A stretch of 64,000 nucleotides of DNA from Neobacillus piezotolerans (GTDB taxonomy: Bacteria; Bacillota; Bacilli; Bacillales; Cytobacillaceae): contig NZ_QNQT01000009.1 of assembly GCF_003362805.1 (NCBI RefSeq), positions 62,001 through 126,000 of the forward strand, written 5' to 3'. Positions within the stretch are counted from its first letter, which is position 1; each line of letters opens with the position of its first letter. Of this stretch, positions 16,890-28,022 are shown in pieces. The notes under the pieces were generated by a model. That model had not been told where the DNA came from. It made no database searches and saw only the letters and a program-made list of their open reading frames with translations. The position numbers were made by a program, and so were the translations under genes.

Positions 16890-17095
16890 AGTATCTCCTT
16901 TTTGGTCGTTATTTCCCTGTCGCCAAGGTATACCTTTATGAAAGCCGCAGCAAAAATGATAAACTAATACTGTACTCATTTTTTGGGCTTACCACAGTTA
17001 CTATGTTACCAATTATACAGCCTGCCTGTAAAAAAAATCACATTGCCGTTTGTTTAGATTCGGTAAACTTATTATGAAGTTTGGAGGTCTCATCT

Positions 17096-17908
17096 TTGGT
17101 CGTTATCCGCAAAGAGTTTGTAAACAGTATTCCCGTTCTCGAAGTTGTCCAGGAAAAGAAGCTGGCGGAAAAGCTGCCATTGGCGATTTTTGCCCATGGT
17201 TTTACGAGCGCCAAGGAAAATAACCTCCATATTGCTTATCTTTTGGCAGAGCGGGGTTTCCGCGCCGTCCTTCCGGATGCCCCCTATCATGGCGAGCGTG
17301 ATGAGGGTTTTGGTGAGGTTGAGTTGTCGGTAAGGTTTTGGGATATTGTAATAAAAACCATCCATGAAGTAAATACCGTGAAGGACTTTTATGTGGCTGG
17401 CGGACTTGCGGCTTCAGGGGAAATCGGCCTGGCTGGCACGTCGATGGGTGGAATTGTCACGCTCGGAGCTTTGACCCAGTACGATTGGATTGGCGCGGCC
17501 GTGAGCTTGATGGGTTCGCCTAGCTACCGGGAAATGGCCGGATGGCAGGTGGATGAATTGCGGAAAAGGGGGCATCAGCTTCCGATTTCCGACGAAGATC
17601 TGGCGGGCCGGATTGAGGCTCTTGGAGTGTACGATTTAAGCCTCCAGCCTGAAAAAGTCGGGGGGAGGCCATTGCTATTCTGGCATGGGGAAGCGGATAC
17701 GGTGGTTCCTCACCATTATGCGTGGGAATTTTACGAAAAGCAGCTGAAAGATCAGCAGCGGAACGGCGATATCGCCTTCATTTCCGAAAGGCATGCCGGG
17801 CATAAGGTTACCCGAAAAGGGACATACGCCCTTGTGGACTGGTTCGTTAGCCATTTAGGCAGCGGGCGGGAATCAGCGGCCGAAAGGAAAGCAGCGGTTG
17901 AGCTTTAA
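17096..17908 (+). CDS. yitV: Alpha/beta hydrolase YitV
   Basis: Serine hydrolase of 270 residues with the alpha/beta fold. The nucleophile elbow GTSMGG, the acid loop WHGEADTVVP and a C-terminal histidine in RHAGHKV are present; the oxyanion region FAHGFTSAKEN is near residue 30. A TTG start at 17096 is chosen, 8 bp after GGAGGT. It lies in conserved order between yitU (divergent) and yitW. The substrate is unknown; an esterase activity is likely. Confidence 0.9.
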   Translation: MVVIRKEFVNSIPVLEVVQEKKLAEKLPLAIFAHGFTSAKENNLHIAYLLAERGFRAVLPDAPYHGERDEGFGEVELSVRFWDIVIKTIHEVNTVKDFYVAGGLAASGEIGLAGTSMGGIVTLGALTQYDWIGAAVSLMGSPSYREMAGWQVDELRKRGHQLPISDEDLAGRIEALGVYDLSLQPEKVGGRPLLFWHGEADTVVPHHYAWEFYEKQLKDQQRNGDIAFISERHAGHKVTRKGTYALVDWFVSHLGSGRESAAERKAAVEL

Positions 17909-17970
17909 GTAGTGGAGTTTGCGGGAAAGTAGGACTTTTCCGTTTAAAATAAGTAAAGGAGAGATGGAAG

Positions 17971-18279
17971 ATGGATCAGGAATTAAAAGATAATATTATG
18001 GGTGCCCTCGAGCTCGTCATTGACCCGGAAATCGGGATTGACATCGTTAATCTTGGGCTCGTTTATGACGTTGAAATGGATGAGGAAGGAAAGGCAACCG
18101 TCACGATGACGCTCACTTCTATGGGCTGTCCGCTTGCGGGAACAATTGTGGACCAGGTGAAGCGCGCGCTTGCGGATATTCCAGAAATCAATGATGTCGA
18201 TGTCAACATCGTGTTTAACCCTCCTTGGTCAAAGGACATGATGTCTCGCTATGCGAAAATCGCGCTTGGCATTAGATAG
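17971..18279 (+). CDS. yitW: MIP18/DUF59 iron-sulfur assembly factor YitW
   Basis: Metal-sulfur cluster assembly protein of 102 residues, the usual DUF59 length. The motifs DPEIGIDIVNLGLVYDV and TSMGCPLAG (reactive Cys) are clear. Family members (SufT/PaaD/MIP18) help load Fe-S clusters. AAAGGAGAG precedes the ATG. It closes the conserved yit block; downstream genes belong to the anaerobic island. Confidence 0.93.
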   Translation: MDQELKDNIMGALELVIDPEIGIDIVNLGLVYDVEMDEEGKATVTMTLTSMGCPLAGTIVDQVKRALADIPEINDVDVNIVFNPPWSKDMMSRYAKIALGIR

Positions 18280-18343
18280 GAAGCAAAAGACTGGAAGCTC
18301 CCGGCATTAAAGGGTCCAGGGGCAGTTCAAGGAGGGAAAACAG

Positions 18344-18682
18344 TTGAAGAATAAAGTTATTTTGGCAACCTCTACCCAGCTGGGCAGGGGGGACGAGCAG
18401 CTTGGCGAGAGCGTGCTTGAAACATTCTTTACACTTCTTAAGCAGAGGGAAGACTTGCCGCGGGCGGTATTTTGCATGAACTCGGGCGTGTATCTGATGA
18501 CGGACGATTCTTTTGTTTCCGTGCACTTGAAGGAACTTGAGCAGAAAGGTGTGGAAATCCTCGCCTGTAAAACATGCGTGGATCACTATGGCCTTGAAGA
18601 AAAGATCACTGTCGGAAAAATCAGCACGATGGGCGATTTCATTAGCCTTGCTTCGGAACACGAGGTCCTCACCATATCCTAA
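18344..18682 (+). CDS. DsrE-like protein, resembling the C-terminal domain of YedF
   Basis: Protein of 112 residues with the DsrE/TusD-like fold. The tail (ILACKTCVDHYGLEEKITVGKI...) matches the C-terminal half of YedF-type sulfurtransferase-like selenium-metabolism proteins, with paired Cys in CKTC, but the N-terminal TusA-like domain of full YedF is missing. A TTG start is used with AAGGAGGG 9 bp upstream. It ends at a strong terminator, so it is separate from the radical SAM gene 228 bp downstream. It probably handles persulfide sulfur or selenium; no partner gene for either is seen here. Confidence 0.75.
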   Translation: MKNKVILATSTQLGRGDEQLGESVLETFFTLLKQREDLPRAVFCMNSGVYLMTDDSFVSVHLKELEQKGVEILACKTCVDHYGLEEKITVGKISTMGDFISLASEHEVLTIS

Positions 18683-18685
18683 ATC

Positions 18686-18715
18686 AAAAACAGCAGCCGT
18701 TGCGCTGCTGTTTTT
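18686..18715 (+). terminator. Terminator after the DsrE-like gene
   Basis: Stem AAAAACAGCAGC with GCTGCTGTTTTT around a short loop, 3 bp after the stop codon. Confidence 0.88.
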
Positions 18716-18819
18716 AATTTGATTTGCAGTAGCCAATGGTATTGAAAGAAGAATGAACAAAAGGATTCATCCCCTAACGTCAGCCCCTTTCACAAAGATG
18801 CCATATTATCCGGTTTTGG

Positions 18820-18862
18820 TGTGACGGATGTCACTTTATGGTCGGGTGGGTGATTTTATAAT
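18820..18862 (+). promoter_or_regulatory. FNR-type site and promoter of the radical SAM gene
   Basis: TGTGACGGATGTCACT at 18820-18835 matches TGTGA-N6-TCACA with one change. A perfect TATAAT lies at 18857-18862. With a start about 7 bp after the -10, the palindrome centre is at about -41.5, the standard class II activation position for Fnr. Confidence 0.75.
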
Positions 18863-18909
18863 ACTAGTAATAAGGCTAGTGGGAACCAGCCGTTCAGGAG
18901 GCGTATGAA

Positions 18910-20067
18910 ATGGCTTTTAACCCGGAAATGATGATGAAGAAGAACCAATATGCGAGGGATTTCAACGAGAATCCATTCATTGTGATTTGGGAGTTGACGC
19001 GCGCGTGCCAGCTGAAGTGCCTGCACTGCAGGGCCGAGGCACAGTATATGCGTGATCCGCGAGAACTTTCATTTGAAGAGGGGAAACACCTCATTGATCA
19101 AATATATGAAATGCAAAATCCAATGCTTGTGTTTACAGGCGGGGATCCGCTTATGCGCAAGGATGTATTTGACATAGCCAAGTATGCGGTCGAGAAGGGC
19201 GTACGGGTATCGATGACCCCGAGCGCGACACCGAATGTTACAAAGGAAGCGATTGAGAAGGCGAAAGAGGTTGGCTTGTCTCGCTGGGCGTTCAGCCTTG
19301 ACGGGCCAAACGCGGAAATACACGACCATTTCAGAGGGACCGCTGGCTCTTTTGATCTGACGCGCGAACGAATCAAGTATCTGCATGAACTTGAAATACC
19401 TATACAAATCAATACAGTTATTTCCCGATATAATATTGATTACCTTGAAGAAATGGCGAACCTGATGGAAGAGCTTGAATGTGTCCTGTGGAGCGTGTTC
19501 TTCCTTGTTCCGACAGGCCGCGGGCAGGAGAGCGATATGATTTCCCCTGTCCAGCATGAGCATGTGTTCCGGTGGCTGTATGACTTGAGCAAACGTGTGA
19601 AATTCGATATTAAAACGACTGCAGGGCAGCATTACCGCCGCGTCGTCATTCAGCAAAAAAAGCGCGAAGCAAAAGAGCAGCAGGGCAAAATCGAATATTT
19701 GAATGCATTGACCGCCCACGGGCTGACCGGCTCAATCGATGGCCTTGGCCGGGCGCCAATGGGAGTAAATGACGGCAACGGTTTTGTATTCATCTCCCAT
19801 ATCGGCGATGTATACCCAAGCGGGCTGCTACCGATTAAGGCGGGGAATGTCAGGGAAACTCCGCTCGCGGAAATTTACCGTGAATCGCCGATTTTCAAAT
19901 CGCTCCGCAATCCCGATGAATACAAGGGAAAGTGCGGCGTTTGCGAATTCCGCCATGTGTGCGGAGGTTCCCGTTCACGGGCGTACGCGATGACAGGCGA
20001 TTACCTGGAAAGCGAGCCATTCTGTGTCTATATCCCAAAAGCGATGCGGGAAAAGCAGGTGCAGTAG
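18910..20067 (+). CDS. Radical SAM/SPASM enzyme, NirJ/AhbD-like (TIGR04053 type)
   Basis: Radical S-adenosylmethionine enzyme of 385 residues. The cluster motif is CQLKCLHC in WELTRACQLKCLHCRAEA, with the GGDPLMR SAM-binding segment about 30 residues on and SLDGPNAEIHDHFRG later. A C-terminal SPASM-like cysteine set (CGVCEFRHVCGG, then a distant Cys in SEPFC) should bind an extra Fe-S cluster. Overall it resembles the NirJ/AhbC/AhbD group acting on haem precursors or peptides, and I place it with the uncharacterised TIGR04053 set. AGGAGG precedes the ATG. It is monocistronic, Fnr-type controlled, and sits among molybdenum-cofactor and nitrate-respiration genes. No peptide substrate gene or d1-haem genes are adjacent, so the product is unknown. 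Confidence 0.85.
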   Translation: MAFNPEMMMKKNQYARDFNENPFIVIWELTRACQLKCLHCRAEAQYMRDPRELSFEEGKHLIDQIYEMQNPMLVFTGGDPLMRKDVFDIAKYAVEKGVRVSMTPSATPNVTKEAIEKAKEVGLSRWAFSLDGPNAEIHDHFRGTAGSFDLTRERIKYLHELEIPIQINTVISRYNIDYLEEMANLMEELECVLWSVFFLVPTGRGQESDMISPVQHEHVFRWLYDLSKRVKFDIKTTAGQHYRRVVIQQKKREAKEQQGKIEYLNALTAHGLTGSIDGLGRAPMGVNDGNGFVFISHIGDVYPSGLLPIKAGNVRETPLAEIYRESPIFKSLRNPDEYKGKCGVCEFRHVCGGSRSRAYAMTGDYLESEPFCVYIPKAMREKQVQ

Positions 20068-20160
20068 ACTTTTCGAAAATCCTGTCATTGGCAGCTGAGC
20101 CGCATTTTAAGTTTTTTAAAAAAACAGTGGTGCCCAGCGCAACGGGCCATCTGTTCATAT

Positions 20161-20203
20161 AAAAACGGCGGCCGGAACGAGATTCTCTCCGGCCGTTTTT
20201 TCT
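20161..20203 (+). terminator. Terminator after the radical SAM gene
   Basis: Perfect 8-base stem CGGCCGGA/TCCGGCCG followed by TTTTTTCTT. The 200 bp beyond, to 20410, contain no recognisable gene. Confidence 0.85.
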
Positions 20204-20410
20204 TGGAGAGAGGATGGCAGCGCAAGACTAGGTACCCGGAAGGGTTGAAATGAGTCAGGGATGAAGTGCGAAGCTGGTCGTGGCAGCCCCGATTGAAATG
20301 AAATCAGGGATGAGGGAGCTTGACGGGGTTACAGCTGCCGGAGGCCAACTGTGTGGGTGCAGGGGGTGTGGAAGCCTGTGGGCCTGGGCCCATTTTTACA
20401 AAAGGCAAAA

Positions 20411-20437
20411 GAAAAAAGGATGGGGGTTCCATCCTTG
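20411..20437 (-). terminator. Terminator of the first fnr gene
   Basis: AAGGATGG/CCATCCTT stem immediately after the stop codon on the minus strand, followed by a run of T residues. Confidence 0.82.
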
Positions 20438-21142
20438 TTATTCGATGCTGCAGTATACGGCTGGGCAGTTTTCGCAGCCTATTTCGAGCTTTAGGTATTC
20501 AAGGTCGTGGATCGTTATTTTGCCTTTTTTGATTGAGATGAGGCCGTCGCGTTTTAGTTCGCTGAGGATCCTGTTTGTGCTTTCGCGGGAGGTGCCGCAG
20601 AAGTTGGCGAGGTCCTGGTTGGTGAGCGGCAGGTCGATCAGGATGCCGTCCGGCTTGTGGATGCCGTAGCTGTTGGTCATCCGGATGAGTGTCGAGAACA
20701 GGGCGCCGCGTTTTCCGTTTAATACGAGGTCACGGAATTTGGTCTGGGTTTTCCGGAAATGGTCGCTCATCCATTTCATGAATTCGAATGCGAGCGTGCT
20801 GTTTTGGAATATCTCGGTTTCAATGACTTCTTTGCGGATCGCGGCGATTTCGCCTTCCTCAAGGACTTTGGCGCTTAGGAGGTATTTGGGGTTGGAGGTG
20901 AACAGCGTCAGTTCGCCGCATATGTCATTTTCACCGCAAATCCTCAGGGACAGTTCCCGTCCATCGGAGGTAATTTTGCTGATTTGGACTTTGCCGGAGA
21001 GGACGATGTACAGTTCTTCGGCTTCCATTCCTTCCTGGAATAGGTACGTCGAACGTTCGGACCTGAATTTCCTATCGGCGAATCGCAATAGCTCTTTTAT
21101 TTCAATCGAGTGGGTTGGTTTCATAGCTTTTAAAGCTCCCAT
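20438..21142 (-). CDS. fnr: Crp/Fnr family regulator with C-terminal Fe-S cysteines (Fnr, copy 1)
   Basis: Oxygen-responsive transcription factor of 234 residues. A cyclic-nucleotide-type sensor barrel (residues about 15-125), a long dimer helix (FMKWMSDHFRKTQTKFRDLVL) and a helix-turn-helix (LTNQDLANFCGTSRESTNRILSELKRDG) are present. The C-terminal cluster C223-x2-C226-x4-C231 (CENCPAVYC) is the hallmark of the Bacillus-type Fnr, which holds a 4Fe-4S cluster with three C-terminal Cys and one Asp (the candidate here is Asp138 in TKFRD). RBS AGAGGTGG precedes the ATG. A second, similar regulator lies 6 kb away. A weak FNR-like site (TGTGATTTTTGTTACT, 21183-21198) lies upstream, so autoregulation is possible. 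Confidence 0.92.
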   Translation of the reverse strand: MGALKAMKPTHSIEIKELLRFADRKFRSERSTYLFQEGMEAEELYIVLSGKVQISKITSDGRELSLRICGENDICGELTLFTSNPKYLLSAKVLEEGEIAAIRKEVIETEIFQNSTLAFEFMKWMSDHFRKTQTKFRDLVLNGKRGALFSTLIRMTNSYGIHKPDGILIDLPLTNQDLANFCGTSRESTNRILSELKRDGLISIKKGKITIHDLEYLKLEIGCENCPAVYCSIE

Positions 21143-21404
21143 TTTGCCACCTCTTTACTGTTTTATTTGGTCAAGGATTGTCTGTGATTTTTGTTACTTT
21201 CATTGTATATCAGTTTCATTCATTGGAAAGTTGATAACAATGACAATATAGTGAAAACTGGAAGGAAATATTTTTTGGACAAATAATGAATTTTATTTGA
21301 ATTCTGCATCCAAGCTTGTCCTCTTCTACCAAAAGAGGGTAAAGGTATGCTAGAATGAATAGATAATAAAGTTAACAATATGTATATGTGGATTATCGGT
21401 ATGT

Positions 21405-21511
21405 AGTAGCCTAATAGGCGTCCGCCCAAGTCCGTTGGGTCAGTGTTAGCGGGGCGGTTTCGGAGTGCTGATGGTTTCCTTGAAGACAGGGAAGCGGTGT
21501 TGGCTATATCC
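21405..21511 (+). ncRNA. Structured 5' leader of moaA, candidate molybdenum cofactor riboswitch
   Basis: The 107 bp before moaA fold as an RNA domain by eye. A closing stem TAGCC/GGCTA joins the two ends. A CCGCCC/GGGCGG pairing lies in the first half and TTTCCT/AGGGAA forms a hairpin in the second. The size, closed P1 helix and position before moaA fit a Moco-type riboswitch (Rfam RF01055), but the sequence was not aligned to the family. It could also be an unrelated leader. No T-run follows, so any control would probably act on translation. Confidence 0.5.
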
Positions 21512-21531
21512 TGAATATTGGAGTTGATAAA

Positions 21532-22548
21532 ATGGAAAAGTCCATTATTAAAGATAAGTTGAACAGGCCGCTGCGGGATTTGAGGATATCGGTTATCGAC
21601 CGCTGCAATTTCCGCTGCCAGTACTGCATGCCGGCGGATAAGTTCGGTCCGGACTTTGTTTTCCTGCCAAAAAGCGCATTGCTGACATATGAAGAGCTTG
21701 AACGAATCGCAAAGATATTTGTCGGGCTCGGGGTGGAGAAAATCCGCCTGACTGGCGGTGAGCCGCTCTTGCGCAAGGATTTGCCGATTCTCGTAAAAAA
21801 ACTTTCGCAAATTGAAGGGCTGAAGGATATCGGCCTGACGACGAACGGGGTGCTGCTGCCGAAGTTTGCGGAGCAGTTGAAGGCGGCCGGGCTAATTCGT
21901 GTGAATGTTTCGCTCGACAGCCTGAACGATAAGCTGTTCGGTGAGATTAACGGGCGGAATGTCGGCACACAGCCTGTCCTGGATGGAATCGCCGCTGCGC
22001 GGAAAGCGGGCCTTGGCGTCAAGGTGAATATGGTTGTGAAAAAAGGACTGAATGACCAGGAAATTCTTCCGATGGCGGAGTATTGCAAGGAGAATGGCTT
22101 GCAGCTCCGCTACATTGAATACATGGACGTGGGCAGCACGAACGGCTGGAAGATGGATGATGTTGTTACGAAAAAGCAGATTTACGAGGTTCTTAAAGGG
22201 AAGTTCGAGCTTGAGGCGCTTGAGCCGGCTTACTTTGGCGAGGTGGCTAAGCTTTACCGCTATAAAGGGACCGATAGTGATGTAGGTTTCATTACGTCTG
22301 TTTCGGAATCGTTCTGCAGCAGCTGCACTCGATCGCGCCTGTCTGCAAACGGGCAAATTTTCACGTGTTTGTTCAACGGGAACGGGCATGACATCCGCAA
22401 TTTCCTTAGGAATGGGGCGACTGATGAGGAACTTGCCGAACGGATCACTTCGATTTGGCAGGGGCGCGGAGACCGTTACTCGGATGAACGGACAGAGGAG
22501 ACGGCAGCGACTAGGAAGAAGATTGAAATGTCCTATATTGGAGGATAA
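21532..22548 (+). CDS. moaA: GTP 3',8-cyclase MoaA
   Basis: Radical SAM enzyme of 338 residues that converts GTP to the cyclic intermediate in the first step of molybdopterin synthesis. The N-terminal cluster motif CNFRCQYC, the LTGGEPLLR segment, the C-terminal cluster cysteines ([14 protein letters not shown]...FTCLF) and the double-glycine tail (SYIGG) needed for catalysis are all present. GGAG lies 11 bp before the ATG. It is monocistronic with a terminator; moeA and mobB are nearby, while moaB/C/D/E are not in the window. Confidence 0.96.
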
Positions 22549-22553
22549 ATATG

Positions 22554-22597
22554 AAGAGGCTTGACCCGGCTGCGCGCCGGGCGGCCTCTTTTTTTAA
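22554..22597 (+). terminator. Terminator after moaA
   Basis: Nested stem GAGG...CCCGGC/GCCGGG...CCTC ending in seven T residues. Confidence 0.85.
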
Positions 22598-22771
22598 ATT
22601 TTTTAACGGGGTGCCGTTGAACCGTTATTTATGCCGGATAACCAAGATAATGCCAAACCACGAGTTAATTCTGTCTTAAGGAAAAATTCTTGGAAAATGC
22701 ATAACAACTTCGAATAATCATCCGCGATTCGGATTGAAGCACCAACCCCGGTTAATAATGATCGTCCAAAC

Positions 22772-22812
22772 AAAAAAGCCTGCCGGCTAATTGGATAGTC
22801 GGGCAGGCTTTT
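22772..22812 (-). terminator. Terminator after ric
   Basis: Nine-base stem AAGCCTGCC/GGCAGGCTT with an AAAAAA run on the left that becomes the U-run of the minus-strand transcript. Confidence 0.82.
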
Positions 22813-22826
22813 ATTTTCCCAAAAAC

Positions 22827-23522
22827 TTAAAAATACCTTGGGAACAAGATGTTGTTTTCGAGATGGACGTGTATGAAGGTTTGCCCTTCGAGCATTTCAA
22901 GCCGCTTGTAGACGAGGCGGTACGTGCCGCACGCATCGGCCGGAGGTGTGAAATCGGATGTGATTTCGCGAAGCTCTTTTAATATCGCTCCGGCATGGTC
23001 GTGTTCTTTTTCAAGCTCTTTGATATAATTGAGCGCCTGTTCACGGTCTTCAACCGTATCGGCGTCGAGCTGCCTGATTAAAGGGAAGACGGTTTCTTCT
23101 TCTTTGGCAACGTGCTCGAGCATTTCTTTTTTCAGCTCGTAATAAAGCTCATACACTTTCATCAGTTCCGGGCGGTGGCCGCCATGGACACGGGAAACTT
23201 TTGTGACATATGGACTTAGGTTCAAAAATTCCTCACGGAGCGGGTTATGGTATTCGGAAATGACGTGGTCGATGATTGTGTCCGAGGCAGAGTCGGTCCA
23301 AACCTTCAGGTCGGTCTCCCCGCCGCTGCTTTTCTCAATCACTTCGGCCAGGTTTGCCATCAGGTTTCCGATATCGACGCCGCCGGCAGCGGCCGCCTCC
23401 GCAATCGGCGTTGCACCGCCGCAGCAGAAATCAATCCTTACACTTTTAAATACATCGGCTGTTTTTGGAAATTCATTGACGAGGTCCCTGACAAGAGTTT
23501 GTTCTGAGTATGTTTGCAACAT
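22827..23522 (-). CDS. ric: Iron-sulfur cluster repair di-iron protein Ric (ScdA/YtfE)
   Basis: Di-iron protein of 231 residues that restores Fe-S clusters damaged by nitric oxide or peroxide. The N-terminal DUF542 domain (VNEFPKTADVFKSVRIDFCCGG) with its CC pair is followed by a hemerythrin-like four-helix domain with metal-ligand histidines (HGGHRPEL, HVAKEEETVFPLI, KEHDHAGAIL, HVHLENNILFPRYF). AAGGAGG precedes the ATG. It has an FNR-type site at the class II position, consistent with protection during nitrate/nitrite respiration when NO is formed. Confidence 0.95.
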   Translation of the reverse strand: MLQTYSEQTLVRDLVNEFPKTADVFKSVRIDFCCGGATPIAEAAAAGGVDIGNLMANLAEVIEKSSGGETDLKVWTDSASDTIIDHVISEYHNPLREEFLNLSPYVTKVSRVHGGHRPELMKVYELYYELKKEMLEHVAKEEETVFPLIRQLDADTVEDREQALNYIKELEKEHDHAGAILKELREITSDFTPPADACGTYRLVYKRLEMLEGQTFIHVHLENNILFPRYF

Positions 23523-23569
23523 ATTTTTATATCCTCCTTGTAAAAGGTAATAAATATTTTCTTAACTTT

Positions 23570-23612
23570 AGAATACGACACTCTTCCAGGTAACATGGTG
23601 ACGCGCATCACA
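23570..23612 (-). promoter_or_regulatory. FNR-type site and promoter of ric
   Basis: GGTGACGCGCATCACA at 23597-23612 matches TGTGA-N6-TCACA except for one base. On the minus strand TATTCT at 23575-23570 can serve as the -10, which puts the palindrome centre at about -41.5 from the inferred start. Confidence 0.65.
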
Positions 23613-23664
23613 CCTGAGAACTTTTTTCAATGTGAGCTTGATTTTGCCAAAAAACGTCCACATT

Positions 23665-23705
23665 CCTGATTTGCCATCAATCAGGGTTTCGGCTACCCTT
23701 ATAAT
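23665..23705 (+). promoter_or_regulatory. moeA promoter with a 7-bp inverted repeat
   Basis: A perfect TATAAT is at 23700-23705. No good -35 hexamer is at 17 bp, but CCTGATT-N7-AATCAGG (23665-23685) covers that position. The palindrome may be an activator or repressor site; it does not match the FNR consensus. Confidence 0.45.
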
Positions 23706-23746
23706 GGAGAAGGAATATGTAGAGAGACGGTGCAGGAGATGATGAG

Positions 23747-25012
23747 ATGGTTGAAATGAGGAGGCCGATTACGATCGGCGAAGCAGTAAAGCGCATTATG
23801 GATTGCAAGCCAACGGGTAAAACCGAATTTATATCGATTAATGAAAGCTTTGGGCGCTTCCTATCCGTAGATTTGGCCGCTACAAGCGATGTCCCGCACT
23901 TTACAAGGGCACCGTATGATGGTTTTGCGGTCCGGTCTGTGGATACACAGGAAGCTGGGCTTGATCATCCGGTCGAATTCGAGGTGATCGACCATATCGG
24001 CGCGGGCCAAACGACCTCGAAAGTGCTCGGTGAGAAGCAGGCGGTCAGGATTATGACAGGGGCGATGATGCCGGAAGGGTCCGATGCGGTCATGATGCTT
24101 GAGCTCGCCAAAACTGCCGAGCGCGATGGCAAAAATTATATGACGATCAAACGGAAAATCAAAAAGGGTGAAAATGTTTCCTTTCAAGGGGAGGATGCGA
24201 AGGAAGGGGAAGTCCTTGTAAAAAAGGGTACCCTTATTAATCCCGGTATCCAGGCGATGCTTGCAACGTTCGGATATGCAAGCGTGCCTGTCGCGAAAAA
24301 GCCTGTGGTCGGCCTTTATGCAACCGGGACGGAACTGCTTGGCGTGGATGAACCACTCGTCCCAGGCAAAATCCGTAACAGCAATTCGTATATGATTGCC
24401 GCCCAGATTGAACGTGCCGGTGGGGAAGTGGAATATTTCGGGAGCCTACCGGATGATTTCGATACATGTTTTGAAGCGGTGAAAAACTCGCTTGATAAAG
24501 TCGATATGCTTGTAACGACAGGCGGCGTTTCGGTCGGGGATTACGACTACCTGCCGGCCATTTATGAAAAGCTCGGGGCGGAAGTTCTGTTCAATAAGGT
24601 AGCGATGCGCCCAGGGAGCGTCACGACCGTTGCTGTCCATAATGGCAAGCTTTTGTTCGGGCTGTCGGGAAACCCGTCCGCATGCTATGTAGGATTCGAA
24701 CTGTTTACAAGGCCGGTCATTCGGACAATGCTTTGTTCCGAAAACCCGCATTTACGCAAGGAATTGGCGGTGCTGGATACGAATTTCCCAAAGGCAAACC
24801 CGTTTACACGATTTGTCCGCAGCACGGTTTTTTTCAGGGAAGGGCGCCTGATTGCAACCCCAAGCGGGCTTGATAAATCGAATATTGTGATGAGCCTGGC
24901 GGGGGCGAATTCCCTGATGATTTTACCCGGTGGGACGAGAGGGTTTGAAGCGGGCATGGAGGTCGATGTACTCCTGCTTGAAGACCAGGAAGGAAGCGAA
25001 TGGCCATGGTAA
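23747..25012 (+). CDS. moeA: Molybdopterin molybdotransferase MoeA
   Basis: Enzyme of 421 residues that inserts molybdate into molybdopterin. Family motifs: VPHFTRAPYDGFAVRS near the N-terminus, IMTGAMMPEGSDAVM, the GTP/MPT-binding segment TTGGVSVGDYDYL, and LFGLSGNPSACYVGFE. The C-terminal domain IV is complete. ATG start with GCAGGAG 8 bp upstream. mobB starts inside the 3' end with a 13-bp overlap, so the two form an operon. Confidence 0.96.
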   Translation: MVEMRRPITIGEAVKRIMDCKPTGKTEFISINESFGRFLSVDLAATSDVPHFTRAPYDGFAVRSVDTQEAGLDHPVEFEVIDHIGAGQTTSKVLGEKQAVRIMTGAMMPEGSDAVMMLELAKTAERDGKNYMTIKRKIKKGENVSFQGEDAKEGEVLVKKGTLINPGIQAMLATFGYASVPVAKKPVVGLYATGTELLGVDEPLVPGKIRNSNSYMIAAQIERAGGEVEYFGSLPDDFDTCFEAVKNSLDKVDMLVTTGGVSVGDYDYLPAIYEKLGAEVLFNKVAMRPGSVTTVAVHNGKLLFGLSGNPSACYVGFELFTRPVIRTMLCSENPHLRKELAVLDTNFPKANPFTRFVRSTVFFREGRLIATPSGLDKSNIVMSLAGANSLMILPGGTRGFEAGMEVDVLLLEDQEGSEWPW

Positions 25013-25536
25013 GGCCATTCGTTTTTCAGGTGGCGGGCTATCAAAACAGCGGGAAAACGACTCTTGCGGAGGAATTGATCCGGCGGCTTAAGGAAGCTGG
25101 CGTTGACGTGGCGTCAATCAAGCACCATGGCCACGGAGGCAAGCCCGACATTCCATCGGAGAAGGATTCCAGCAGGCATATCGACGCCGGAGCCTCAGCT
25201 GCACTAGTTGAAGGAAATGGCCGGCTTATCCTTCATTCCGAAAAGAACGCGTGGCCGCTTGAGGACCAGATTAGGATCCTTTCCACCTTCGATCCTGAAG
25301 CGATTTTGATAGAAGGACATAAATATGCCTCCTATCCGAAAATCGTCCTGATCAGAAACCGTGAAGATGAAAAAGGCTTGCTCGGACTTGAAAACATCAT
25401 CGCGGCTGCTTACTGGGATACAGAGCCGCAGACCGATGCGGGATTCCCTTTTTTTTCGATAAAAGACAACAGGACCCCTGAAAACCTTACAAAATTAATC
25501 CTAGAGCAAATGGAGTGCCAAGCACCGCAGAACTAA
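25000..25536 (+). CDS. mobB: Molybdopterin-guanine dinucleotide biosynthesis protein MobB
   Basis: P-loop GTPase-like adaptor of 178 residues that supports MobA in forming the guanine dinucleotide cofactor used by nitrate reductase and other DMSO-reductase family enzymes. The Walker A is GYQNSGKTTLAEEL, and the metal/nucleotide segments KHHGHGG and DSSRHIDAGA are present. It overlaps moeA by 13 bp. The terminator stem overlaps its stop codon. Confidence 0.94.
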   Translation: MAMVRPFVFQVAGYQNSGKTTLAEELIRRLKEAGVDVASIKHHGHGGKPDIPSEKDSSRHIDAGASAALVEGNGRLILHSEKNAWPLEDQIRILSTFDPEAILIEGHKYASYPKIVLIRNREDEKGLLGLENIIAAAYWDTEPQTDAGFPFFSIKDNRTPENLTKLILEQMECQAPQN

Positions 25537-25555
25537 AGGTGCCTGGCACTTTTTA
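25514..25555 (+). terminator. Terminator of the moeA-mobB operon
   Basis: AGTGCCAAGCACC/GGTGCCTGGCACT stem (one mismatch) overlapping the mobB stop codon, followed by TTTTT. The arms are versions of the GTGCC-GGCAC palindrome also found near yitT. Confidence 0.82.
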
Positions 25556-25637
25556 CTATAAAAATAAGAAGTAAAATGGCAGCTTGGCTAAACTGGCGCT
25601 TGCGCTTTTCGTTGTCAAGGGAATTTTTTTTGACATG

Positions 25638-25680
25638 AGTTACTTTTGTCACTGATTTGTCACGTTTCGTTCGTTAGAAT
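25638..25680 (+). promoter_or_regulatory. Degenerate FNR-type site and promoter of the NarI-like gene
   Basis: AGTTACTTTTGTCACT (25638-25653) matches TGTGA-N6-TCACA with three changes. TAGAAT at 25675-25680 is a plausible -10, giving a centre at about -41.5. A further half-site TTTGTCAC follows at 25657-25664. Confidence 0.45.
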
Positions 25681-25716
25681 GGGAGATGGTTGTGATCTCA
25701 GGGGGAGTGACGACGG

Positions 25717-26166
25717 ATGGAGTTGTTGCACTGGTTAGTATGGCTGGTTTATCCATATACGGTGGCCGCGGTATTGGGAATGGGGATTGTATGGAAATAT
25801 GATACCCCGGAATATTTCGGGGAAATGCAGCGAAAGTCCGGCCTGATCCTGAACAAAACGGTTAAAGTACTGTGGTTGCTGACAACGGTGACCGGCATCG
25901 GCTTGATTGCGTTTTATCGGGCAACAGATGAATTTGCGACTATGTTCGGATGGCTGATCGGCTTTTTGCACTTTAGCCCGGATATGGAACTTTTGAAGCA
26001 TGCCTCTCTATTGCTGCGAATCCATCTAATTTTGCTGTTTACTTTTTTGTTGTTTTTTTCATTTACGAAATACGTTTCAATCGTGTTTAAGCCAATCCAT
26101 CTTTTGCAAGCGCTTTCCTCCGGGAAAGGAAGGCGAGGAAATCCTGCCCGATTCCCAAGGGTTTAA
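25717..26166 (+). CDS. NarI-like membrane protein lacking the usual haem ligands
   Basis: Membrane protein of 149 residues with about four hydrophobic segments (residues 7-25, 48-66, 76-88, 98-124). The start (WLVYPYTVAAVLGMGIVWKYDTPEYF) and the end (LLRIHLILLFTFLLFFSFTKYVSIVFKPIHLL) resemble the gamma subunit of respiratory nitrate reductase. It is about 75 residues shorter than NarI. No His occurs between residues 6 and 84, where the first two haem ligands of NarI lie, and the last ligand position reads Ser121 (FTKYVSIV) instead of His; His103 remains. It is probably a non-haem relative of NarI. The C-terminal tail is basic. Strong RBS (GGGGGAG). Function not known. Confidence 0.65.
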   Translation: MELLHWLVWLVYPYTVAAVLGMGIVWKYDTPEYFGEMQRKSGLILNKTVKVLWLLTTVTGIGLIAFYRATDEFATMFGWLIGFLHFSPDMELLKHASLLLRIHLILLFTFLLFFSFTKYVSIVFKPIHLLQALSSGKGRRGNPARFPRV

Positions 26167-26203
26167 TTCTTGTTGCCATTTTCGACACTTTTGCACTTCA
26201 ATA

Positions 26204-26246
26204 TGTGATGCATTTCACTTTCCAGCTATTATCGTTGCCTTATAGT
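26204..26246 (+). promoter_or_regulatory. FNR-type site and promoter of ywiC
   Basis: TGTGATGCATTTCACT (26204-26219) has one change from TGTGA-N6-TCACA. TATAGT at 26241-26246 is the -10 candidate, so the palindrome is centred at about -41.5. Confidence 0.72.
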
Positions 26247-26278
26247 GAAGGTAAGATGCTAAGCAAGAGGTGTTGAAA

Positions 26279-26995
26279 ATGAAACTATTTATGCCAAAGC
26301 AGCATGGCGCCTGGGCGATGGTTATCATTCCATTCTGGCTCGGGGCGATTTCGGGAGGTTTTCTGTGGGAGCACATTCCATTCTTTTTTGGGTGGCTGCT
26401 GCTTTACTTAGCGACGTACCCGATGCTTCTCCTATTTAAAAAGAAGAAACTTCAATTCCATGCAAAATGGTCGCTTATTTATCTCATTCCAGCTATATTG
26501 CTGCTAATGTTCCCGTTAGTTGAACGGCCGTCGGTCACATTGTTTGGTGTGATGATGCTGCCTTTTTTCACAATTAACGCCTTCTTTTCGTCAAAAAACA
26601 AAGATAGGGCCCTAATGAACGACTTCAGTGCCGTTTTTGCTTTTTCGCTAGCTGGAATTGCGAGTGCGTATCTGCATTCAGGAAAAGTAACTGAAGAAGC
26701 CATTCTCGTTTTTATTGCCTCATCACTGTTCTTTATAGGCAGCACGTTTTTTGTGAAAACGATGATCAGGGAGAAGCGGAGCATCCAGTACAAATGGATA
26801 TCCTGGTGCTATCATGCCCTAGTCGTGGCGGGATGGCTAGTTTTTGGCCAATGGATAGTCGCGCTCGCATTCATTCCAAGTTTGGCAAGGGCCATCGGCT
26901 TTTATGGAAAGAACCTTACTCCGAAACAAATCGGCATTTTTGAAATTATCAACTCGGCGATTTTTTTCATCCTAATCGCAAGTTCGCTCATTTAA
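26279..26995 (+). CDS. ywiC: YwiC-like membrane protein
   Basis: Polytopic membrane protein of 238 residues with about seven transmembrane segments, almost the same length as B. subtilis YwiC. The N-terminal motif MPKQHGAWAMVIIPFWLG is the family signature. In B. subtilis ywiC lies beside narK and fnr; here it lies next to the second fnr gene and has its own FNR-type site. ATG at 26279 is chosen with AGAGGTG 6 bp upstream; GTG and TTG codons just upstream are less likely. Function unknown. Confidence 0.88.
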   Translation: MKLFMPKQHGAWAMVIIPFWLGAISGGFLWEHIPFFFGWLLLYLATYPMLLLFKKKKLQFHAKWSLIYLIPAILLLMFPLVERPSVTLFGVMMLPFFTINAFFSSKNKDRALMNDFSAVFAFSLAGIASAYLHSGKVTEEAILVFIASSLFFIGSTFFVKTMIREKRSIQYKWISWCYHALVVAGWLVFGQWIVALAFIPSLARAIGFYGKNLTPKQIGIFEIINSAIFFILIASSLI

Positions 26996-27065
26996 AAGTA
27001 AGGCATATTAAAGGACAGAGTTGATTTTTAACTGAGGCAAAAATATTTCAACGAACCATACAGCA

Positions 27066-27103
27066 AGAAAAAGCCAGCCGGGCTCACCCGGCTGGCTTTT
27101 TAG
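27066..27103. terminator. Convergent terminator between ywiC and the second fnr gene
   Basis: Fourteen-base perfect stem AAAAGCCAGCCGGG/CCCGGCTGGCTTTT with a 4-nt loop, functional in both directions. Confidence 0.9.
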
Positions 27104-27792
27104 TCTATATTGCATATTTCCTTTGGACAGTTTTCACAATCGATTTCCTTTTTTAAATACGGGAGCTGATGGATCGTGATGATTCCTTTATTTATTGAAA
27201 TGACTCCCTTTTTCCTGAGCTCACTAAGGAGGCGGTTCACAACTTCCCGGGAGGTTCCGCAAAAATTGGCGACTTCCTGGTTTGTAAGGAGAAGGTCAAT
27301 CATAATTCCGTTATTCGTTTTAACTCCATAACTGTTCGCCATACGAATCAATGTAGAATAAAGCGCTCCCTTTTTTCCATGAAGGACGAGGTCGCGGAAT
27401 TTTGTTTGCGTCTTCCTGTAATGCTGGCTCATCCATTTCATGAACTCCAATGCCAGAACCTGGTCGCTGGCAAGCTTTGCTTCAAGGGCATCCTTCATGA
27501 TGACGGCGACTTCCCCGCTTTCGGTAACCTTGGCGCTTAATAAATTTTTTGGGGTCGAGCAAAATATATTCAATTCGCCAATCAAATCACCCTCTGAGCA
27601 AATCCGTAAAGTTAGCTCCCTGCCATCAGGGATTATCTTGCTAATTTGGATCAAGCCGCTTAAAAGGATGTAAATCTCTTTCGAAGGGGATCCTTCCTGA
27701 AAAAGAAAATGCCCTTTTTCTATCTTTTGGATATGATGGGTTAGCTTAAGCAATTCGGTCAATTTCGCGGGCGCTCCTGCATAGGATTGCAT
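27100..27792 (-). CDS. fnr: Crp/Fnr family regulator with C-terminal Fe-S cysteines (Fnr, copy 2)
   Basis: Second Bacillus-type Fnr, 230 residues from ATG at 27792 (a GTG three codons upstream is possible). The sensor barrel, dimer helix (FMKWMSQHYRKTQTKFRDLVLHGK) and DNA-reading helix (FCGTSREVVNRLLSELRKKG) are very close to copy 1. The C-terminal cluster C219-x2-C222-x4-C227 (CENCPKEIC) and Asp134 in TKFRD are conserved, so both copies should bind a 4Fe-4S cluster. Its position beside ywiC matches B. subtilis fnr, making this the likelier orthologue. The 230 bp upstream to yjzC show no FNR-type site. Confidence 0.92.
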   Translation of the reverse strand: MQSYAGAPAKLTELLKLTHHIQKIEKGHFLFQEGSPSKEIYILLSGLIQISKIIPDGRELTLRICSEGDLIGELNIFCSTPKNLLSAKVTESGEVAVIMKDALEAKLASDQVLALEFMKWMSQHYRKTQTKFRDLVLHGKKGALYSTLIRMANSYGVKTNNGIMIDLLLTNQEVANFCGTSREVVNRLLSELRKKGVISINKGIITIHQLPYLKKEIDCENCPKEICNID

Positions 27793-28022
27793 GTTGGCCA
27801 CCTACCTTCAGCACAAATCGTGCAATTGTTATTTATTACTATAATTATATTGCTAACGAAGGAAAAAAACTATAAACCCGGAGAAAGGTTCATACAAACG
27901 TCAAATTCGACAATTATTTCTCGGGAAATAATGACAAAAATTCCCCTTAATCAAGAAAAAACGCAGAGAAATAATAAAGAATAGGGGCAAATGTCCCCTT
28001 TAAGCTGAAAGGAGGAAATGAA

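Follow-up and report, generated by a model that had tools for sequence, protein, structure and literature searches.

How is heme completed without oxygen in facultatively anaerobic Bacillaceae? Because ChdC needs H2O2, this step was called open in 2024, in the available part of that account (PMC10965808). The question is raised concretely by 64,000 nucleotides of Neobacillus piezotolerans (contig NZ_QNQT01000009.1, positions 62,001 to 126,000; here the window, in whose own coordinates features are given, with strand), from a genome of 4.53 Mb in 36 contigs. Between 18344 and 27801 lies a compact island in which a radical S-adenosylmethionine (SAM)/SPASM gene of the family TIGR04053, rSAM (18910-20067, +), accompanies two Crp/Fnr-family genes and genes for molybdenum cofactor (Moco) synthesis, several promoters having a palindrome at the same distance from the -10 hexamer. 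From sequence, we hold with good confidence that the island is an anaerobic-response unit in which the TIGR04053 product would be an AhbD-like heme synthase, and we propose that the gene probably encodes the oxygen-independent coproheme decarboxylase described as 'yet unknown' for Bacillaceae (PMC10965808). A preliminary description had seen here a regulon for nitrate/nitrite respiration; we now read it instead as an anaerobic unit, in which the gene of most interest codes for a probable oxygen-independent heme synthase. If this is true, a role in oxygen-independent heme synthesis would fall to TIGR04053, whose members have so far no named function. That AhbD performs the last heme step in some organisms is already credited in the available parts of two reviews (PMC7242693, PMC12670364), and ahbD can adjoin hemY/hemH/hemQ, as the accessible text of PMC10548856 states, citing others. 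In open-licence literature no gene assignment for Bacillaceae, nor Fnr control of such a gene, was found, nor any paper that names TIGR04053.

The TIGR04053 protein and heme synthesis

What is this protein most like? It scores 533.5 bits against TIGR04053, above the curated cut-off of 395, and the nearest model of known function is that of AhbD, TIGR04545, at 379.8 bits, followed by NirJ2 at 229 and NirJ at 164. It carries CX3CX2C together with CX2CX5CX20C, and so has the pair CX3CX2C and CX2CX5CX20-38C that is common to all 39 AhbD sequences compared in the available part of PMC10452713. According to the same partial source the AuxI cysteines occur in only some AhbDs, of the methanogen and sulfate-reducer type, and many do without them, non-methanogenic archaeal AhbD having Glu and Ser at three AuxI positions. 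Across 22 TIGR04053 rows, one of these positions is Ser throughout, one is Ser in 17, and one is Glu in 12 or Ala in eight. Solved structures are distant, the best being PqqE (E 2e-14). In a first tree TIGR04053 joined with the AhbD-like sequences L160 and L170 (99/92); in a second, with six rows added and four long or odd ones dropped, L160/L170, NirJ1+NirJ2 and TIGR04053 came out unresolved at the base.

Does the company kept by these genes point to heme? Out of 398 Bacillota genomes, 19 encode a TIGR04053 protein that scores above the cut-off, and ChdC is found in 16 of those 19 versus 34 of the 398 overall. A close homologue is present in 27 of 197 Paenibacillaceae genomes; 20 of the 27 loci were examined, with operon starts set by hand from alignments, and in 17 of them a CgoX/HemY gene adjoins the TIGR04053 gene on the same strand, in either order. 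It is a few kb away in two more and was not seen in one. The identity as CgoX was scored at one locus (548 bits against NF008845, cut-off 560; 378 against TIGR00562, cut-off 98) and rests on similarity for the others; in both genomes checked for this, G401 and G366, it comes in addition to a hemE-hemH-hemY set located elsewhere. Further afield, four haloarchaeal homologues are also TIGR04053 members (489-504 bits) and form one clade with the window protein (98/99). Near all four is a gene for a cbb3-type subunit I, read here as norB, with an annotated nirK and a halocyanin gene each near two of the four and a protoporphyrinogen oxidase gene near one. The order radical SAM, halocyanin, cbb3-type gene at the Haloferax larsenii locus matches that in H. 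volcanii, whose ahbD (HVO_2144) is placed by the available text of PMC5746218 near nirK, norB and blue-copper genes. Deletion of that gene, in the same excerpted account, strongly slows growth under anaerobic conditions only, and added heme brings dimethyl sulfoxide (DMSO) respiration back to about the parental level and denitrification back in part; aerobic growth is impaired when PitA, a ChdC-type enzyme, is lost (PMC5746218). A wider claim, for which the balance is modestly favourable, is that TIGR04053 would be the general oxygen-independent last heme enzyme of ChdC users in Bacillaceae, Paenibacillaceae, Thermus and haloarchaea, each lineage having brought it under an anaerobic regulator of its own. 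In Bacillaceae this would be Fnr at class II sites, as also in Paenibacillaceae, where the gene has other neighbours and a dedicated extra CgoX; Thermus and haloarchaea would use other regulators.

Several points weigh against such a heme synthase under Fnr control. The AhbD score lies below that model's cut-off of 500, and the protein is therefore classed under TIGR04053, with an AhbD-like action proposed for it, rather than under TIGR04545. The AuxI cysteines of methanogen AhbD are missing from it, and it has Ala where AuxI-less AhbDs retain Glu. No hem gene is nearby in the Bacillaceae island loci examined. Three of the 19 TIGR04053 genomes, all of one genus, lack both ChdC and ferrochelatase, and the co-occurrence with ChdC may stem partly from shared ancestry of respiring lineages. 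That HVO_2144 itself belongs to TIGR04053 is deduced from the locus of its congener, H. larsenii. Staphylococcus aureus makes heme anaerobically and requires CgoX for it, in the part of PMC6620371 available. A second TIGR04053 copy in the window genome, about 70% identical, has no palindrome within 900 bp. Lastly, the TIGR04053 homologue of T. thermophilus is directly behind a nitrite reductase gene; the accessible text of PMC5748679 calls it nirJ, following nirS, and considers it likely to serve NirS maturation.

Is TIGR04053 then NirJ-like, acting in the synthesis of heme d1 or the maturation of nitrite reductase, and not a heme b synthase? Besides the Thermus locus and its naming, the motif CX2CX5CX20-21C quoted for NirJ is present in the window protein. 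However, 164 bits for NirJ is far under the 380 for AhbD, the nirK near the homologue in two haloarchaea is annotated as a copper enzyme, for which no heme d1 is needed, the Paenibacillaceae neighbour is CgoX, and the ahbD defect of H. volcanii was cured by heme b in the available account (PMC5746218). A NirJ-type function is unlikely.

Some other copies deserve mention. Upstream of the second copy in the window genome (L176, C1, about 929 kb) is an array of roughly 50-bp repeats containing TGACATTCTA ... TAGAATGTCA. At another second copy (L177, G010:C43), TGTAACATTCATTACA stands about 209 bp upstream and TATAAT follows after 21 bp, so Crp/Fnr-type control may extend to this copy too. The 'Campylobacter jejuni plasmid' NZ_CP029056.1, 2,894 bp long, has a TIGR04053 gene that shares 84% identity with the window protein, and is probably a contaminant contig.

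Promoters with a common spacing

Are the genes of the island under one control? The preliminary description had placed a TGTGA-N6-TCACA-type palindrome at -41.5 before four of them, and read directly all four have it. The rSAM site, TGTGACGGATGTCACT (18820-18835, +), precedes a -10 TATAAT (18857-18862). That of ric (22827-23522, -), an iron-sulfur (Fe-S) cluster repair gene of the ScdA/YtfE family (TIGR03652, 244 bits), is TGTGATGCGCGTCACC (23612-23597, -) with TATTCT (23575-23570). Before the narI-like gene (25717-26166, +; 149 aa, matching PF02665 positions 123-207) a weak site with three mismatches, AGTTACTTTTGTCACT (25638-25653, +), is followed by TAGAAT (25675-25680), and before ywiC (26270-26995, +; PF14256, 132 bits) TGTGATGCATTTCACT (26204-26219, +) is followed by TATAGT (26241-26246). 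The gap between site and hexamer is 21 bp in every case, so that each palindrome is centred at -41.5 relative to the start inferred from the -10. A fifth site, TGTAAAAAAAATCACA (17027-17042, +; C36:79027), with TAAACT (17064-17069) after the same gap, had been missed and is outside the span first described; it precedes an operon (17081-18682, +) of an alpha/beta-hydrolase-fold gene (17081-17908), an FeS_assembly_P (DUF59-type) gene (17971-18279) and a YedF/DsrE-like gene (18344-18682).

The comparison drew on three named relatives (Bacillus sp. FJAT-27245, Neobacillus notoginsengisoli and Bacillus sp. FJAT-27445) and 17 further loci, with loci from up to 21 genomes; locus L135, whose start falls outside the locus, was left out of promoter counts. 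The three named relatives preserve the gene order, and so, apart from losses and insertions, do most of the 17 other loci. In the named relatives the palindromes and -10 hexamers are conserved and the spacers vary. If at most two mismatches are allowed in the site, TAnnnT follows exactly 21 bp behind one in 14 of 14 regions for rSAM, 15 of 15 for ric, 15 of 16 for ywiC and six of 11 for the hydrolase operon; pooled over these four, a gap of 21 occurs in 50 regions and every other gap in nine at most. For the narI-like gene the gap is 21 in 15 of 16 regions if three mismatches are allowed (the next gap reaching seven) and in one of 16 if two are. This layout also stands in front of the TIGR04053 gene of a second family, where the surrounding genes differ: 12 of the 20 Paenibacillaceae upstream regions have a site with at most two mismatches and TAnnnT is 21 bp behind one in all 12, several of these sites being near-identical copies (L180, L182, L254 and L271; L260-L262, L265 and L266). 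The spacing had been judged unlikely to arise by chance; it is the 21-bp gap with its conservation that carries this, and not the motif count, as the window holds 26 matches with at most two mismatches against 19.7 expected, a number equalled in nine of 100 shuffles. Fnr-type class II control of the island promoters is, from these alignments, well supported, and the idea of one Fnr-type, class II-like promoter set on a compact island that includes two Fnr genes is borne out by sites, spacing and conservation. A pair of TTTGTCAC repeats, spaced 11 bp apart (25645-25663), is next to the weak palindrome of the narI-like promoter and is perhaps the site of a second regulator.

Not all genes of the island are so arranged. 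The Moco genes moaA (21532-22548, +; TIGR02666, 391 bits), moeA (23747-25012, +) and mobB (25000-25536, +) are present as first described, with fnrA (20438-21142, -) and fnrB (27100-27801, -). A -41.5 site is before moaA in none of the seven loci of the genus and in six of 18 overall, and before moeA in two of 18 and not in the window; in the genus of the window the Moco genes adjoin the regulon and are not established as part of it. For fnrA and fnrB a -10 at 21 bp was found in none of 21 regions each, counts that overlap as the two queries matched the same gene in nine of the 21 loci. At the fnrA promoter an overlooked palindrome (21183-21198, -), conserved in the three named relatives and not at -41.5, is just downstream of a TACAAT hexamer (21207-21202; the whole feature 21183-21209), and its position suggests possible autorepression. 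Terminator-like hairpins follow the hydrolase operon (18686-18715) and separate the convergent ywiC and fnrB (27068-27101, +). No Rfam family reached its gathering score in the island, nor in loci L069 and L062. Fnr control of the aerobic heme genes was also considered and rejected, there being no site with at most two mismatches just upstream of hemEHY or chdC in the window genome.

Nitrate respiration and the choice of regulator

Is this nonetheless a regulon for nitrate or nitrite respiration? Moco genes, ric and a NarI-related gene do invite the thought, as does a NarK-type transporter gene that has a class II-type site upstream at another place in the genome, so that the regulon may include the transport of nitrate or nitrite. 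However, NarG was not found at E 1e-100 in the window genome, is absent from all eight genus members searched and from 18 of the 22 genomes tested, and the Moco genes of the window lack the -41.5 arrangement; nitrite and nitric oxide (NO) reductases were not searched for. NarI has two pairs of heme-ligand histidines, and the narI-like protein is of half length with one conserved His (20 of 21 rows), PF02665 otherwise having a single weak match in the genome. The narI-like protein was rejected as a nitrate reductase subunit, and the nitrate or nitrite respiration formerly given as the purpose of the regulon is now quite improbable. Molybdoenzymes are not wanting, with eight oxidoreductases of PF00384 in the genome, and other class II-type sites are before pflB-pflA and before fdhD with a selenocysteine-type formate dehydrogenase.

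Among further observations, the formate dehydrogenase-N gene L069:7205-10183 (window genome, C12, about 210 kb), which comes after fdhD and a class II-type site, has an in-frame TGA read as selenocysteine at residue 191, and a second molybdopterin oxidoreductase, at C32:194128, has one TGA; the left operon of the window includes a YedF-like gene. At C23:158501 (L058, minus strand) a class II-type site with a -10 TATTAT at 21 bp precedes a 99-aa gene, behind which are COX2- and COX1-type oxidase genes. At C1:881189 (L049) an exact palindrome separates two divergent genes, qoxA of the aa3 quinol oxidase and one of 287 aa whose C-terminal part has a YtvA-like match.

Which protein would bind the island sites? 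FnrA and FnrB share 58% identity; each has a C-terminal C-x2-C-x4-C tail together with an R-E-x3-R helix, and in an alignment of eight rows C223, C226, C231, R186, E187 and R191 are invariant, the cysteines being presumably Fe-S ligands and the other three residues part of what we take to be a TGTGA-type recognition helix. The scan of the whole genome suggested in the preliminary description gave a weaker signal: TGTGA-N6-TCAC is enriched (25+20 versus 6+5 for the reversed pattern), as is the palindrome with a -10 at 21 bp (55+45 versus 23+24), but the gap itself stands out weakly, TAnnnT being at 21 bp in seven and at 32 bp in six of the 45 oriented exact sites. Many of these exact palindromes are Rex-like, so any regulon list is partial. 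That the island sites too belong to the redox repressor Rex, or to another Crp-family protein, is very unlikely, for although the Rex consensus TTGTGAAW4TTCACAA overlaps the pattern (PMC2883068, available part), many genomic matches resemble it and the narI-like site is the weakest case for Fnr, the island cores CGGATG, TGCGCG and TGCATT do not match AAW4TT, the constant -41.5 is a class II activator position, and the island itself contains two genes for Fnr proteins whose recognition helix is CRP-like; Rex was rejected as island regulator because of core sequence and position.

How might the favoured anaerobic heme-synthase unit work? Without oxygen, Fe-S-loaded Fnr, from fnrA and/or fnrB, would bind the -41.5 palindromes and, as a class II activator, would raise expression of rSAM, of the operon at 17081, of ywiC and ric, and probably of the narI-like gene. 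The TIGR04053 product would use SAM radical chemistry to convert the propionates of rings A and B of coproheme to vinyl groups, giving heme b, a route that would serve when the H2O2-requiring ChdC cannot work. Ric, going by its family, would repair NO-damaged Fe-S clusters, and the neighbouring Moco genes would supply cofactor for formate, DMSO-type and other molybdoenzymes of the genome rather than for NarGHI.

Likeness to known systems

The Fnr of B. subtilis has, as we take it, C-terminal cysteines and a nearby ywiC, both of which are also in the island. A further likeness is the Fnr consensus, TGTGANNNNNNTCACA (PMC8151001, Table 1). Unlike that regulon, the island has two Fnr genes, TIGR04053, ric and a narI-like gene, in a genome without NarG. 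With the nic cluster of T. thermophilus it shares a TIGR04053 gene in the company of YwiC-like and DUF542 genes; that cluster differs in having nitrite and NO reductases and, in the available part of PMC5748679, the regulators DnrS, DnrT and NsrR. The denitrification cluster of H. volcanii, to which ahbD belongs, resembles the island in its anaerobic regulator palindrome, its respiratory neighbours and a ChdC-type enzyme elsewhere, as far as the accessible text of PMC5746218 goes, though host and regulator are different, the former being archaeal. With the heme synthase AhbD itself, the shared features are the radical SAM and CX2CX5CX20C motifs and Ser at two AuxI positions as in non-methanogen AhbD. 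However, where AhbD is part of a siroheme-dependent pathway, TIGR04053 in Bacillota mostly occurs with the coproporphyrin pathway, that of ChdC and ferrochelatase.

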